Below are positions 36,146 through 52,121 of a stretch of DNA of 64,000 nt, piece by piece (positions within the stretch are counted from its first letter, which is position 1; each line of letters starts with the position of its first letter). The position numbers and the translations under genes were made by a program. The notes beneath the pieces were generated by a model. The model did no database searches and was not told the origin of the DNA. It was given only the letters and a program-made list of their open reading frames with translations. Origin of the DNA: Haloferax litoreum (lineage in GTDB: Archaea > Halobacteriota > Halobacteria > Halobacteriales > Haloferacaceae); contig NZ_WKJO01000001.1 of assembly GCF_009674605.1 (NCBI RefSeq), positions 1,054,001 through 1,118,000 of the forward strand. Direction: 5' to 3'.

Positions 36146-36294
36146 TCGTCTTCGTCGCCCCTGAGACGGCAGTGGATAAGAAAGTATCTTATCTCCAACT
36201 GGTGGCTCCTGAATCGACACCCGCCACTGCGCTACTCTCCATGTCGGCGACACAAGCGACGAACGTGCCACTCACTCCCACGATTCCGGAACCG

Positions 36295-36300
36295 TTTTGA
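36295..36300 (+). promoter_or_regulatory. TATA-like element for the pheST leader transcript
   Basis: TTTTGA at 36295-36300, within ACCGTTTTGA, lies 24-29 nt before the ATG at 36324, the spacing expected for a leaderless haloarchaeal transcript. No comparable A/T-rich element exists 25-30 nt before pheS at 36542, where the sequence is GC-rich, so this is the best candidate promoter for the whole leader-pheS-pheT unit. Confidence 0.5.
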
Positions 36301-36323
36301 AGGAACGTGGCAATCTCGAAGAT

Positions 36324-36410
36324 ATGACAACCGAACCTGTCTGTGATGGTGTCAGCGCCACTCGCGAACCGAGCACCTCCGGGTTCGGCTTTTTCTTCCT
36401 GACCGCCTGA
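36324..36410 (+). CDS. Phe-rich leader peptide upstream of pheST (candidate attenuator peptide)
   Basis: A 28-residue ORF, starting ATG at 36324 and ending TGA at 36408-36410. Its last third reads SGFGFFFLTA: Phe codons TTC, TTT, TTC, TTC within five codons, immediately before the stop. It lies 131 nt before the Phe-tRNA synthetase genes and directly at the predicted transcript start. In enteric bacteria the PheM leader peptide of pheST plays this part, slowing the ribosome when charged tRNA-Phe is scarce. The T-run in the Phe codons could alternatively be a plain oligo-U stop signal, but no forward gene ends upstream that would need one. Translation is not proven. Confidence 0.6.
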   Translation: MTTEPVCDGVSATREPSTSGFGFFFLTA

Positions 36411-36450
36411 GGTCGGCGGACTCCGCCCCGGCGCGACCACGCCCGGCGGA
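36403..36450 (+). promoter_or_regulatory. Competing hairpin segments after the Phe leader peptide
   Basis: Four complementary segments follow the Phe codons: CCGCC at 36403-36407 (inside the last leader codons), GGCGG at 36415-36419, CCGCC at 36423-36427 and GGCGG at 36445-36449. Segments 1:2, 2:3 and 3:4 can pair, each excluding its neighbour. The 3:4 hairpin is strongest because TCCGCC and GGCGGA enclose a second stem, GGCG (36430-36433) with CGCC (36440-36443). There is no U-run after it, so if functional it may act on translation or pausing rather than as a bacterial-type terminator. Confidence 0.45.
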
Positions 36451-36541
36451 CGAAACCGACCCCTTCGGTCAGACTCGCCAACGCGGCGAGGCTTCGAAAC
36501 TGCTAACCAACTCCCAGACGGCTAACGCCACAACGAACCAG

Positions 36542-38041
36542 ATGCGACTTCCGGAATCACAGGTCGCGGTGTTGAACGCCGCGAGCGCTACAGACGAACG
36601 GACGATAGAACAGTTGGCGGAGGCGACGGACCTGAAACCAGAGACGGTGACGGGTGCGGCCTTCGACCTGCGCGACGACGGCCTCGTCTCGGTCACAGAG
36701 ACCATCGAGGAAGACGTCGAACTGACCGACGAGGGCGTCGAGTACGCCGAAGGCGGCCTTCCAGAGGTCCGACTCTACCGCGCCGCACTCGACGTCGGCG
36801 ACGGCGATTCGGTCCCGATGGGGCAGGTCATCGGTGCCTCCTCGCTTGGCGGCCCGCAGGTCGATATCGCGCTGTCGAACTTCGCGCGAAAGGGCTACGG
36901 CCACATCGACTCGGGCGAACTCGCGCCCGACGCGGACGCCGACCCCGACGCTGACGAGGAGGCCGCAGCACTCGCGGCCCTCGTCGCCGGCGACAGTGTC
37001 GACGACGCCGTCCTCGACCAACTCGAATCACGCAACCTCGTGGTCCGCCGCGAGCGAACCATCCGCGCCGTCACCCTCACCGACGAGGGCGTCACGGCCA
37101 TGATGGAAGGCGTCGAGGCGGCCGAGACGGTGGACCGTCTCACGCCCGAGATGCTCACCTCCGGTGAGTGGGAAGACGTCGAGTTCACCGAGTACAACGT
37201 CGAAGCCGACGCCCCCGAGGTACGCGGCGGCAAGAAACACATCCTTCGGCAGACGGCAGACCGCGTGAAGGACGTGCTCACCGGCATGGGCTTCGCCGAG
37301 ATGGAAGGTCCGCACGCCGACGCGGACTTCTGGATAAACGACTGCTTGTTCATGCCGCAGGACCACCCGGCACGCACGCACTGGGACCGCTTCGCCCTCG
37401 ACGTGCCGCCGATGGAAGACATTCCCGAGGACCTCATCGACCGCGTCCGCGACGCCCACCTCAACGGCGTCGGCGAAGACGGGGACGGCTACCACTCGCC
37501 GTGGAGCGAGGACTTCGCTCGCGCTATCGCCCTCCGCGGGCACACCACATCGCTGTCGATGCGCTACCTCTCGGGCCACGAAGTCGGCGAACTTGAACCG
37601 CCGCAGCGGTACTTCTCCGTCGAGAAGGTCTACCGCAACGACACGCTCGACCCGACCCACCTGCTGGAGTTCTATCAAATCGAGGGCTGGGTGATGGCGG
37701 AAGACCTCTCGGTGCGCGACCTGATGGGTACCTTCGAGGAGTTCTACTCGCACTTCGGCATCACGGACATCCAGTTCAAACCGCACTACAACCCCTACAC
37801 GGAACCGTCGTTCGAACTGTTCGGCCGACACCCCGAGACGGGCGAACTCATCGAAATCGGCAACTCCGGGATGTTCCGCGAGGAAGTCCTCCGCCCACTC
37901 GGCGTCGAATGCGACGTGATGGCGTGGGGCCTCGCCTTAGAGCGTCTCTTGATGCTCATGTACGGTTTCGACGACATCCGCGACGTTCACGGAACGATGT
38001 GTGACCTCGACCTGCTCCGCGAGACGGAGGTGCTCCGATAA
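36542..38041 (+). CDS. pheS: Phenylalanyl-tRNA synthetase, alpha subunit
   Basis: The 499-residue alpha subunit of the class II enzyme. The N-terminal 200 residues are the archaeal winged-helix region (RLPESQVAVLNAASATDERT, and further helix-turn-helix units) that contacts tRNA. The catalytic domain includes motif 2-like FSVEKVYRNDTLDPTHLLEF and motif 3-like MAWGLALERLLMLMYG. With PheT it forms the alpha2-beta2 enzyme. The ATG at 36542 is preceded by a GC-rich 131-nt stretch without a promoter element, so expression probably depends on the leader transcript starting near 36324. It overlaps pheT by one nucleotide (TAATG). Confidence 0.96.
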   Translation: MRLPESQVAVLNAASATDERTIEQLAEATDLKPETVTGAAFDLRDDGLVSVTETIEEDVELTDEGVEYAEGGLPEVRLYRAALDVGDGDSVPMGQVIGASSLGGPQVDIALSNFARKGYGHIDSGELAPDADADPDADEEAAALAALVAGDSVDDAVLDQLESRNLVVRRERTIRAVTLTDEGVTAMMEGVEAAETVDRLTPEMLTSGEWEDVEFTEYNVEADAPEVRGGKKHILRQTADRVKDVLTGMGFAEMEGPHADADFWINDCLFMPQDHPARTHWDRFALDVPPMEDIPEDLIDRVRDAHLNGVGEDGDGYHSPWSEDFARAIALRGHTTSLSMRYLSGHEVGELEPPQRYFSVEKVYRNDTLDPTHLLEFYQIEGWVMAEDLSVRDLMGTFEEFYSHFGITDIQFKPHYNPYTEPSFELFGRHPETGELIEIGNSGMFREEVLRPLGVECDVMAWGLALERLLMLMYGFDDIRDVHGTMCDLDLLRETEVLR

Positions 38042-39753
38042 TGCCCGTAGTCGACGTTCAACCAGACGAACTGCGCCGCCTGACCGGCCACGAAGAGAAG
38101 TCCGACGAGGAGTTCAAAGACGACCTGTTCGCGCTCGGCCTCGAATTCGAGGGCGTGACCGACGACGGGGCCTTCCAACTGGAGTTCGGCCCGGACCGCC
38201 TCGACCGTCTCTCGGTCGAAGGCGTCGCCCGGTCGCTTCGCTACCAGTACGGCGACGCCCGTGGCGTCTCCGTCCCGAAGACGAACGACCCAGACTGGAC
38301 TATCGTCGTCGACGAGTCCGTCCCGGACGAGCGACCCTACGTCACGGGTGCGGTCATCCGTGGCGTGGACTTAGACGACGCCGCGCTGGACTCGCTCATC
38401 CAACTGCAGGAGAAACTCCACGCGACGATGGGTCGCAAGCGCGCGAAGGGCGCGATTGGCATCCACGACCTGACGATGCTGAAAGGCGACGTGCTCTCGG
38501 AGGACGCCACCGGCAACTCCATCACGTACACGGGAATCGCCCCCGACGGCGACACCTTCGTCGCCCTCGACTCGAACGAGGAACTCACGCCCGCCGAGGT
38601 GCTCGAACAACACGCGACCGGACAGAAGTATGCCGACCTCGTCTCTGAGTACGAGCGTTACCCGGCCATCTACGACGAAATCGGCCTGTTCTCGTTCCCG
38701 CCGGTCATCAACGGCCGTCGGACCGAGGTGTCGACCGACTCGCGTGACCTGTTCGTCGAACTCACCGGCACCGACCAGTGGACCATCGACCGGATGTGCA
38801 CCATCATCTGTTACGCGCTGGCCGCCCGCGGGGCGACCATCGAGCAAGTCGAAGTCCAGTACGAAGACGGCACCGTCGTCAAACCCGACTTCGACGTCGA
38901 CACGAAACACGTCAGCCACGACCGAATCGAGTCGATTCTCGGCGTCGAGTTAGAGATGGACGAGGTCATCGACCTCTTCGAGCGCTCTGGACTCGACGCG
39001 AACGCCGAGTTGGGTGAACAGACAGTCTACGAAGTCTCCATCCCACCGTATCGCGTCGACGTGCTCCACCCGCTGGACCTCGTCGACGACGTGGGTCGGG
39101 CCTACGGCTTCAACGACCTCGAACCGCGCTACCCCGACGTGGGGACGGTCGGGCAGCGTCACGAGCGCTCCCGACTCGAAGACGCCGCCCGCAACAGTCT
39201 CGTCGGACTCGGGTTCGAGGACATGCTCGACTTCCACATGATTTCGGAAGGAGAGAACTACGAGCGCATGGGTATCGAACCCGGCACGGACGTGCTGGGC
39301 GGCGGCGAACCCGCCTCCATCACCGAACCCTACAGTGAGGACTACACCATGCTCCGCACGTGGGTGCTCCCGTCGCTGACGATGGTGCTGGAGAACAACA
39401 CCCACCGCGCGTACCCACAGGACCTCGCCGAAATCGGCCACGTGGCCCACCGCGACGACGACGAGAACACCCGCGTCGCCGAAGCGCGCCACGTCGCCGC
39501 CGTTCTCGCCCGCCACGACGCGACCTACGAGGACGCGAAGGCCCGCCTCGCCGCACTCTGTGGCGACTTCGACGTGGAACTGGAGACGCCAGCGACCGAA
39601 CACCCGTCGTTCATCCCCGGTCGGACCGCCGCCGTCGTCATCGACGGCGAGGAAGTCGGTATCGTCGGTGAACTCCACCCGAAGGTCATCGTCGGACACG
39701 ACCTCGAACTGCCGGTCGCGGCGTTCGAGTTCGACCTGTCGGCGCTGGCGTAA
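38041..39753 (+). CDS. pheT: Phenylalanyl-tRNA synthetase, beta subunit
   Basis: The 570-residue beta subunit, of the shorter archaeal/eukaryotic type without the bacterial extensions. It opens MPVVDVQPDELRRLTGHEEK; a B3/B4 editing-type domain covers the first half (TMGRKRAKGAIGIHDLTMLK). B5 domains follow (VSIPPYRVDVLHPLDLVDDV), then a non-catalytic class II-like core. It provides editing and tRNA binding for PheS. The ATG shares its A with the TAA of pheS, so the two are translationally coupled. A near copy of the last 24 nt of this gene recurs 97 bp downstream. Confidence 0.96.
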   Translation: MPVVDVQPDELRRLTGHEEKSDEEFKDDLFALGLEFEGVTDDGAFQLEFGPDRLDRLSVEGVARSLRYQYGDARGVSVPKTNDPDWTIVVDESVPDERPYVTGAVIRGVDLDDAALDSLIQLQEKLHATMGRKRAKGAIGIHDLTMLKGDVLSEDATGNSITYTGIAPDGDTFVALDSNEELTPAEVLEQHATGQKYADLVSEYERYPAIYDEIGLFSFPPVINGRRTEVSTDSRDLFVELTGTDQWTIDRMCTIICYALAARGATIEQVEVQYEDGTVVKPDFDVDTKHVSHDRIESILGVELEMDEVIDLFERSGLDANAELGEQTVYEVSIPPYRVDVLHPLDLVDDVGRAYGFNDLEPRYPDVGTVGQRHERSRLEDAARNSLVGLGFEDMLDFHMISEGENYERMGIEPGTDVLGGGEPASITEPYSEDYTMLRTWVLPSLTMVLENNTHRAYPQDLAEIGHVAHRDDDENTRVAEARHVAAVLARHDATYEDAKARLAALCGDFDVELETPATEHPSFIPGRTAAVVIDGEEVGIVGELHPKVIVGHDLELPVAAFEFDLSALA

Positions 39754-46760: not shown

Positions 46761-48233
<1,473 letters not shown>

Positions 48234-48275
48234 AACGACCGAGACCACCCCGACGGGGTGGCTCACACGCGATCT

Positions 48276-48325
48276 TCCGAGTTCGAACACCATCCGTTCG
48301 GACACCTTAGAACTACTAGGGCTAA
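48276..48325 (+). other. 3' strand of the 16S rRNA processing stem
   Basis: Pairs with 46631-46680 (see that entry). It ends 3 nt before the tRNA-Ala gene, so cleavage here separates pre-16S from the tRNA-Ala side of the precursor. Confidence 0.85.
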
Positions 48326-48328
48326 CAC

Positions 48329-48400
48329 GGGCCCATAGCTCAGTGGTAGAGTGCCTCCTTTGCAAGGAGGATGCCCAGGGTTCGAATCCCTGTGGGTCCA
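48329..48400 (+). tRNA. tRNA-Ala (anticodon UGC)
   Basis: A 72-nt cloverleaf. Acceptor GGGCCCA pairs with TGGGTCC, the D arm is GCTCAGTGGTAGAGT, the anticodon arm is CCTCC-TTTGCAA-GGAGG with TGC at 48361-48363, and the T arm is CAGGGTTCGAATCCCTG. The discriminator is A and no CCA is encoded. Position between 16S and 23S is the standard place in haloarchaeal rRNA operons. Confidence 0.98.
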
Positions 48401-48560
48401 TGGTAAGCAATGTTCAACCCTCGTTGAATCGTGCCCCTTAAGTGTGGGACGGCGATACGAAGGAATGAGCATTGACGACTGATGCACCAACCCGCGCAAG
48501 CGTGGTTGGGAAGGGTCGAAAACGCGCCAGAAGACTACTGGGCGTTTGATGAAACCGTGT

Positions 48561-48602
48561 GTACGTGCAATCCAGGCGTCCACTGGACCCGTTCTCCGGG
48601 TC
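48561..48602 (+). other. 5' strand of the 23S rRNA processing stem
   Basis: GTACGTGCAATCCAG (48561-48575) is complementary to 51562-51576, and TGGACCCGTTCTCCGGGTC (48584-48602) to 51536-51553 with one bulged base. The unpaired bases between the two helices make the bulge-helix-bulge expected for excision of pre-23S. Confidence 0.88.
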
Positions 48603-48618
48603 ACAGTGACTATATCAA

Positions 48619-51525
<2,907 letters not shown>

Positions 51526-51535
51526 TACGCACTGA

Positions 51536-51576
51536 GACCCGAGAACGGGTCCAGGCGCAAACTGGATTGCACGTAC
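51536..51576 (+). other. 3' strand of the 23S rRNA processing stem
   Basis: GACCCGAGAACGGGTCCA (51536-51553) and CTGGATTGCACGTAC (51562-51576) pair with 48584-48602 and 48561-48575 to enclose 23S rRNA. Confidence 0.88.
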
Positions 51577-51632
51577 GTTAGTCAGACGCCACCGATATTG
51601 GTATCACAATGGTTCGATTCCATTGATCGGAA

Positions 51633-51754
51633 TTAAGGCGGCCAGAGCGGTGAGGTTCCACCCGTACCCATCCCGAACACGGAAGTTAAGCTCACCTGCG
51701 TTCTGGTCAGTACTGGAGTGAGCGATCCTCTGGGAAATCCAGTTCGCCGCCCCT
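51633..51754 (+). rRNA. rrf: 5S ribosomal RNA
   Basis: A 122-nt sequence with TTAAGGCGGCCAGAGCGGTG at the 5' end and the complementary GTTCGCCGCCCCT at the 3' end. CCCGTACCCATCCCGAACAC is the conserved 5S loop region. It follows 23S by about 107 nt in the same operon. Confidence 0.98.
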
Positions 51755-51768
51755 ACTCATACTTCACC

Positions 51769-51802
51769 GAAAGCCCACCGGACACGCGTCCGGTGGGCTT
51801 TC
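51769..51802 (+). terminator. rRNA operon terminator-like hairpin
   Basis: A perfect 15-bp inverted repeat, GAAAGCCCACCGGAC (51769-51783) and GTCCGGTGGGCTTTC (51788-51802), with the 4-nt loop ACGC, ends 15 nt after 5S and is followed by TTCATTTA. Confidence 0.85.
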
Positions 51803-52044
51803 TTCATTTACGGCGAGTGGATTCGCCACTCGCGTGCGGTTCGGTGCCCGTGAGCCGCAGCACTCGCGGGTCCGTCACTCGCGACTGGAACGAGTGAGCC
51901 GGTCGGTGCTGTGAGCGGCAGCACACGACGCCTGCAGGTACCACCCACCACGAGTGAGACAGTACCCCTTGAACGGGGGTTAGAACACCACACGAACCCT
52001 CACACCGTCAGGCTTAAGCACCAGACAGCGATACGATAAACTGC
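51803..52044. other. Spacer with a hairpin and an imperfect direct repeat
   Basis: Between the rRNA terminator and tRNA-Cys there is no gene. A hairpin pairs GCGAGTGG (51813-51820) with CCACTCGC (51826-51833). A block of about 23 nt, TCGGTGCCCGTGAGCCGCAG and onward (from 51841), recurs with few changes at about 51903-51924. GGCTTAAGC near 52011-52019 is a likely promoter for tRNA-Cys, about 30 nt before it. Confidence 0.5.
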
Positions 52045-52121
52045 GCCAAGGTGGCAGAGTCCGGCCCAACGCATCCGCCTGCAGAGCGGAACCCCCGCCG
52101 GTTCAAATCCGGCCCTTGGCT
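52045..52121 (+). tRNA. tRNA-Cys (anticodon GCA)
   Basis: Acceptor GCCAAGG pairs with CCTTGGC, the anticodon arm is TCCGC-CTGCAGA-GCGGA with GCA at 52081-52083, and the T arm is GCCGGTTCAAATCCGGC. The variable region is a little long. Discriminator T, no CCA encoded. It lies after the rRNA terminator with its own TATA-like element; a tRNA-Cys after the rRNA operon is usual for haloarchaea. Confidence 0.97.

Follow-up and report, generated by a model that had tools for sequence, protein, structure and literature searches.

Introduction

In bacteria, ribosome-mediated attenuation is a textbook mechanism. In the pheM-pheST and pheL-pheA attenuators of E. coli, a short Phe-rich leader ORF lies 5' of the gene for phenylalanyl-tRNA synthetase (PheRS) or for Phe synthesis, and a hairpin is sited in such a way that the position of the ribosome decides its folding. 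The auxiliary TrpRS gene of Streptomyces coelicolor is reportedly also controlled by ribosome-mediated attenuation, with a leader containing Trp codons placed before this second TrpRS gene. T-box riboswitches, likewise found 5' of aminoacyl-tRNA synthetase genes, sense tRNA charging by binding the tRNA directly, and in thrS-type regulation the synthetase binds an operator in the leader RNA that imitates the tRNA. A limited literature search returned no description of ribosome-mediated attenuation in archaea. Among the uORFs of H. volcanii, Table 2 of Babski et al. (2016; PMC4983044) includes the same pheS case as the one discussed here, in an entry that does not describe Phe codons, hairpin, conservation or mechanism.

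The present analysis concerns a window of 64,000 nucleotides of the Haloferax litoreum chromosome (NZ_WKJO01000001.1, positions 1,054,001 to 1,118,000), whose nearest relative is H. profundi. The pheST leader found in this window shares with leaders of the pheL/pheM/trpL type both the position of the ORF between promoter and gene and the terminal cluster of cognate codons. It differs from E. coli pheM and pheL in its archaeal promoter, leaderless start and unrelated sequence, and also in having one hairpin and a U-run that lies in the Phe codons, with none after the hairpin. The S. coelicolor leader is paralleled by the haloarchaeal leader of a second TrpRS gene (trpS2), but it employs bacterial terminator hairpins and belongs to another domain with another sequence. 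Unlike the T-box, the haloarchaeal sensor is likely to be the ribosome together with the leader ORF, and the region has no Rfam match; the only likeness to the thrS-type operator is a GAA triplet in an internal loop. Because a terminator/antiterminator pair was tested for and not found, the haloarchaeal leader stands outside the bacterial attenuator family as defined. Judged from its sequence, the haloarchaeal pheS leader works like a bacterial leader-peptide attenuator: the region 36287-36461 quite probably acts in cis as a switch, with the ribosome that translates the leader measuring charged tRNA-Phe and thereby setting the P1 transcription that reaches pheST, and the sensing of charged tRNA-Phe is very probably ribosome-mediated and independent of a bacterial terminator/antiterminator pair.

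Results and discussion

Layout of the pheST locus

The features of the locus are collected in Table 1. The elements from which a first-pass annotation had started, namely TTTTGA at 36295-36300, the leader ATG, the Phe-rich ORF and the pheS start, are all read directly in the sequence, and the product of pheS belongs to PF01409. The stretch between the leader ORF and pheS is GC-rich, and pheT starts on the final base of the pheS ORF. About 7 kb 3' of pheST, at window positions 46761-52121, lies a complete rRNA operon (16S, tRNA-Ala, 23S, 5S, tRNA-Cys).

Table 1. Features of the pheST locus in window coordinates.
Feature	Position	Strand	Remarks
P1, distal promoter	36287..36300	+	BRE-like CGGAAC, then TATA-like GTTTTGA; ~29 nt 5' of leader ATG; leaderless arrangement; read directly
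Leader ORF, 28 codons, MTTEPVCDGVSATREPSTSGFGFFFLTA and stop, end SGFGFFFLTA	36324..36410	+	ATG 36324, TGA 36408-36410; read directly; intact counterparts in relatives
Regulatory codons TTC GGC TTT TTC TTC (F-G-F-F-F)	36384..36398	+	9-12 nt 5' of stop codon; conserved Phe cluster
TTTTTC (T5C) within the Phe codons, putative archaeal terminator-like U-tract	36390..36395	+	Read directly; T-run bias in relatives
Conserved hairpin (predicted)	36411..36461	+	Covariation, 48 sequences; model R1
Hairpin outer helix	36411-36416/36456-36461	+	Covariation
Hairpin internal loop CGGAC/CGAAA	36417-36421 / 36451-36455	+	
Hairpin inner helix	36422-36426/36446-36450	+	Covariation
Hairpin apical part	36427-36445	+	
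P2, probable second promoter CGAAACTGCTAACC	36495..36508	+	BRE-like and weak TATA-like GCTAAC; kept before pheS with and without leader; putative
pheS, phenylalanyl-tRNA synthetase alpha subunit	36542..38041	+	PF01409, E 6.1e-78
pheT, phenylalanyl-tRNA synthetase beta subunit	38041..39753	+	PF17759, PF03484 and others

Conservation of the Phe-rich leader

Besides the window, 80 pheS loci taken from haloarchaeal genomes were compared. The conservation of the reading frame and of its Phe codons in relatives, by which the first-pass annotation had proposed to judge its idea, was borne out: an intact Phe-rich leader was found in 63 of these loci as well as in the window, a count that should be read with the selection of leader ORFs for in-frame Phe codons in mind, for which the hairpin-only search described below is the unbiased check. 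The tail is of the type GFGFFFxx-stop, with the Phe cluster kept near the stop codon, and the leader is found in Haloferax, Halogeometricum, Halogranum, Haladaptatus, Halorussus, Halorubrum, Natrialba, Natrinema, Natronomonas and others. It is absent from 16 of the 80 loci, for instance in Halohasta, Halonotius, Halosegnis and some Natronomonas. In one metagenome-assembled genome (L055) the reading frame of the leader is lost ahead of the Phe codons, which may be a real loss or an assembly error.

The length of the leader is usually 23-29 codons (24-30 including the stop), with a single leader of 49, and the Phe codons stay in frame throughout. Insertions and deletions preserve the frame inside the leader ORF only, whereas the distance from stop to hairpin spans all three classes modulo 3. 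Phe makes up 14% of the leader residues and is clustered before the stop, while Trp accounts for 0.1%. The ratio N/S in the leader peptide was 0.89 of the neutral expectation, which corresponds to weak purifying selection only, and no Pfam match was obtained for the leader ORF; an N-terminus of the form M-x-(S/P/T)-E is frequent. Since the amino-acid sequence is barely constrained, a sensor fits better than a functional protein. The comparison of loci thus indicates a genuine Phe-rich leader, conserved across the class Halobacteria. In L079, as also in L269, an extra stretch GFGFRPPKPAAFFAHL lies between GFGF and the last Phe codons, and the T5C run is retained.

A single conserved hairpin follows the leader

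The alignment of 48 sequences following the leader stop supports a single structure, in which an outer helix of 6 bp and an inner helix of 5 bp or more flank a symmetric internal loop, YGGAN/NGAAA. Pairing is kept in 91% of cells, both sides have changed in 122 cells, none of 500 shuffles scored as high, and the slid controls collapse. A covariance model (R1), built from the hairpin alone and blind to the ORF, was searched over 292 genomes of the class. In the window it gave 68.2 bits at the leader hairpin, the next best match having 18.4, and matches at E <= 0.1 were obtained in 149 of the 292 genomes and 48 of 77 genera. Twenty weaker matches were inspected, and 18 of them lie just 5' of pheS, each with an in-frame Phe-rich leader; a few of these 18 repeat genomes of the training set, so that about 14 are judged new. 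The other two have no pheS beside them and were taken as chance. Seven second matches elsewhere were also taken as chance; they are found only within open reading frames, which indicates that the element belongs to pheS. Near pheS loci that have no leader ORF, no strong hairpin match was found.

The four segments named in the first-pass annotation (CCGCC 36403, GGCGG 36415, CCGCC 36423 and GGCGG 36445) are indeed present, but their mutually exclusive pairings found no support. The pairing of the third with the fourth corresponds to the inner helix of the conserved hairpin, that of the second with the third needs a 3-nt loop, and that of the first with the second is no better than with partners swapped between species; the outer helix had been missed. 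Likewise, an alternative CCGACC:GGUC pairing for the 3' strand did not exceed controls with partners swapped from other species. The shortest leaders (L047 and L077, for example) have the P2 box almost directly 3' of the hairpin, and therefore a second hairpin has no room. An alternation of 1:2, 2:3 and 3:4 pairings after the manner of PheM is accordingly unsupported, and one hairpin is conserved instead: covariation was detected in this hairpin only, and mutually exclusive antiterminator and terminator hairpins with a U-run were not found. The hairpin itself is without a U-tract, and no T run of at least 4 follows the leader stop or the hairpin in any of the 63 leaders. No Rfam family reached its gathering score in the pheS leader, and none appeared at E <= 5 in 36290-36560.

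Ribosome position and the U-run in the Phe codons

The spacer between the last Phe codon and the outer helix measures 11.9 +/- 1.9 nt, counted from the end of the codon to the first base of the helix. The leading edge of the ribosome is assumed here, from bacterial toeprints, to lie 9-11 nt past the A-site codon. On this assumption, the helix stays free in 84-97% of leaders when the last Phe codon is in the A site, while 5.2-5.8 of the 6 outer-helix nucleotides are covered once the ribosome has reached the stop codon. The position of the hairpin can hence, as far as this predicted geometry goes, report whether the ribosome is waiting on Phe or has moved on.

The Phe codons of the leader are strongly biased towards T runs. 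TTT accounts for 62 of 232 leader Phe codons as compared with 59 of 1220 in pheS (p = 1.6e-21, calculated as if the sequences were unrelated). A run of at least five T occurs in 40 of the 63 leaders, whereas 5.3 were expected from the codon usage of pheS and the maximum in 2000 simulations was 13; pheS coding sequences hold six such runs in 94 kb. Where Phe has been replaced, GTT, GCT or CTT codons maintain the T run. The signal of about five T followed by C, typical of the archaeal terminator of H. volcanii type, is present in the window leader. According to a reporter study in H. volcanii, a T5C sequence stops 95% of transcripts in vivo, and the coding regions of this species rarely contain T stretches (PMC7237163). 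In other archaea, aCPSF1 binds tracts of U4 or longer and cleaves downstream (PMC8716108). The T-run bias, taken with the published T5C termination, suggests that in most species the Phe codons serve at the same time as a terminator-like signal, which lends indirect support to the earlier suggestion that the T-rich Phe codons themselves may be the stop signal. However, 19 of the 63 leaders have no T run of at least 4, and so the U-tract cannot explain everything. The sRNA HM56 of H. mediterranei, located beside pheS (PMC5852579), was considered as evidence of termination and set aside, since the candidate was defined by homology to H. volcanii and its ends may not be RNA ends.

Promoters and published start sites

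Of 65 aligned loci, 64 have a T-rich box 28-31 nt 5' of the leader ATG, the TATA-like box usually lying at a distance of 29-30 nt. For H. volcanii pheS (HVO_2948), the dRNA-seq data in Table 2 of Babski et al. (2016; PMC4983044) give a mapped start 150-250 nt upstream of the gene, and the table lists no additional start. It also records a 26-aa uORF with a mass of 2772 and a pI of 5.9 at this gene; the leaders of close relatives, which stand in for H. volcanii in this comparison, have 26 aa and in some cases a pI of 5.94 and a mass of ~2792-2850. The comparison of loci and these published start-site data together strongly support the sensing step, that is, the earlier proposal of a Phe-rich leader that would sense Phe-tRNA for an archaeal pheST.

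The accompanying statement that pheS has no nearer promoter is more doubtful. A box of the form GNAAC-N-GCTAAC or similar (P2), with a layout resembling that of P1, precedes pheS in most loci, whether the leader is present or absent, and nothing else is conserved around the pheS start; on the other hand, the single tabulated H. volcanii start agrees with the statement. P2 is probably a promoter for basal expression, although the box may possibly be a basal promoter or another conserved element. Such a promoter could drive pheS past the leader, which counts against leader control, and given a second promoter the leader would govern only the P1 share of expression.

Proposed mechanism and alternative explanations

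P1 would give a leaderless transcript starting at or next to the leader ATG. When Phe is plentiful, the ribosome would read through the last Phe codons, arrive at the stop codon with its leading edge over the outer strand of the hairpin, and then leave; the U-rich Phe codons, which form a T5C-type signal in most species, would become exposed and transcription would end early. When Phe-tRNA is scarce, the ribosome would wait on the Phe codons and cover the U-tract, the hairpin would stay folded just ahead, and transcription would proceed into pheST. The output would in this case be termination at the U-tract. RNA polymerase clears the Phe codons before the ribosome can occupy them, and therefore plain intrinsic termination at this place would be unresponsive to stalling; with the polymerase ahead of the ribosome, stalling control needs a termination step directed at RNA that has already emerged or at a polymerase that has paused. 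The masking of the U-tract would most plausibly be directed against aCPSF1/FttA acting on the emerged RNA. We infer the stalling at low Phe-tRNA, the termination output, the masking of the U-tract and the exact role of the hairpin from this arrangement. That the regulatory codons are the transcription terminator too, so that a U-tract written in Phe codons would be hidden by the waiting ribosome from the archaeal termination machinery, is an idea to which we give somewhat less than an even chance.

The same sensor might have another output, in which the stalled ribosome and the hairpin control the translation of pheS or the stability or processing of the P1 transcript, for example through re-initiation or access to the pheS start. 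The lack of the U-tract in about a third of leaders in which hairpin and Phe codons persist would suit such an output, as would the fact that T runs of at least 4 after the hairpin occur in no leader at all. Nevertheless, we regard it as unlikely, because T runs at the Phe codons are strongly selected in the other two thirds, the 93-245 nt that separate the leader stop from pheS in the aligned loci are far for simple re-initiation, and the surroundings of the pheS start are conserved at the P2 box only. It is very improbable that P2 is the real promoter of pheST and that the leader RNA from P1 stops short of pheS and has no part in its control; the promoter-like box is kept before pheS in most loci, those lacking a leader included, but the distal start in H. 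volcanii is tabulated with no additional one (Babski et al., 2016; PMC4983044), and an unrelated RNA is not expected to carry Phe codons.

A model in which PheRS or a different protein would bind the hairpin to repress the mRNA that encodes it, as ThrRS does on thrS, draws on the conserved internal loop, which suggests a recognised or stable motif and whose strand CGAAA includes GAA, the Phe anticodon triplet. We see only a slim chance for it: the conserved ORF, the Phe codons and the fixed spacing would be left unexplained, the loop is equally readable as ordinary stacked G-A pairs, and the Trp leaders described below keep the codon logic with a different hairpin. The frequent N-terminal motif might point to a small protein with its own function that precedes pheS by chance, but this is hardly credible in view of the near-neutral N/S ratio, the missing Pfam match and the fact that the conserved part is a run of cognate codons at a fixed distance from the hairpin. 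Finally, short CCGCC/GGCGG pairs are common in this GC-rich DNA and weak model matches do occur within genes; a chance pattern is all the same virtually negligible, as it is already refuted by the class-wide conservation, and neither the covariation test nor the in-frame leaders at every pheS-linked match would be accounted for.

If the preferred reading of a Phe-tRNA-sensing leader is true, archaea have reached the logic of attenuation with leaderless mRNAs, a eukaryote-like polymerase and termination by U-tracts and aCPSF1. The leader would moreover provide a natural and genetically tractable reporter for archaeal transcription-translation coupling, a field in which the evidence consulted consists mostly of physical interaction data; in H. 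volcanii, coupling is backed by such data (PMC8576121). Direct testing is possible in this species, where the pheS start site and the uORF are already recorded.

Leaders before other synthetase genes

The trpS2 gene is absent from the genome of the window. In 24 of the 30 best trpS2 loci (L284-L313, e.g. L286 and L301), it is preceded by a leaderless-type ORF that contains WRW, WRWW or a similar motif, and two more leaders among these 30 appear to start with GTG. Trp represents 11% of the residues of the trpS2 leaders as against the 0.1% given above for pheS leaders. A conserved GGGARYGG-like box lies 3' of the Trp codons, and where measured, GCUCACU follows 59-61 nt past this box, succeeded by a pyrimidine-rich and often U-rich tract. 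Single-sequence folding pairs the region of the box with the tract in most loci, in a large hairpin that begins ~9 nt past the last Trp codon, and the paired share of the tract bases was 0.79 as compared with 0.51 in shuffled controls. The spacing from codons to hairpin is similar to that of pheS, whereas the hairpin itself is different. The trpS2 leader is likely to be the Trp counterpart of the pheS leader. A 23-aa uORF is listed at a tryptophan--tRNA ligase of H. volcanii (Babski et al., 2016; PMC4983044, Table 2). If the Phe codons do act as a terminator, and if the trpS2 pyrimidine tract sits in the stem of a hairpin which the advancing ribosome would open, these leaders would form a family of switches for synthetase genes with an origin separate from that of the bacterial switches.

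No convincing leader was found before trpS, tyrS, prephenate dehydratase or PF00587 synthetases in 10 relatives, and none before trpC in 30 loci. In all Haloferax genomes examined, a leader lies before ileS; it ends in S-x-I-I-A-G-(Q/R), its Ile codons being mostly ATT. This leader was sought in 59 genomes, and among the 30 loci read it was present in Haloferax only. The identity of the codons thus follows the gene, with Phe before pheS, Trp before trpS2 and Ile before ileS, and nothing argues more strongly for a role of the codons in sensing tRNA charging. The Haloferax ileS leader (L149-L154, L219, L220) is of the leaderless type and 30-31 codons long, and a GCGGGGC/GCCTCGC inverted repeat spans its stop codon.
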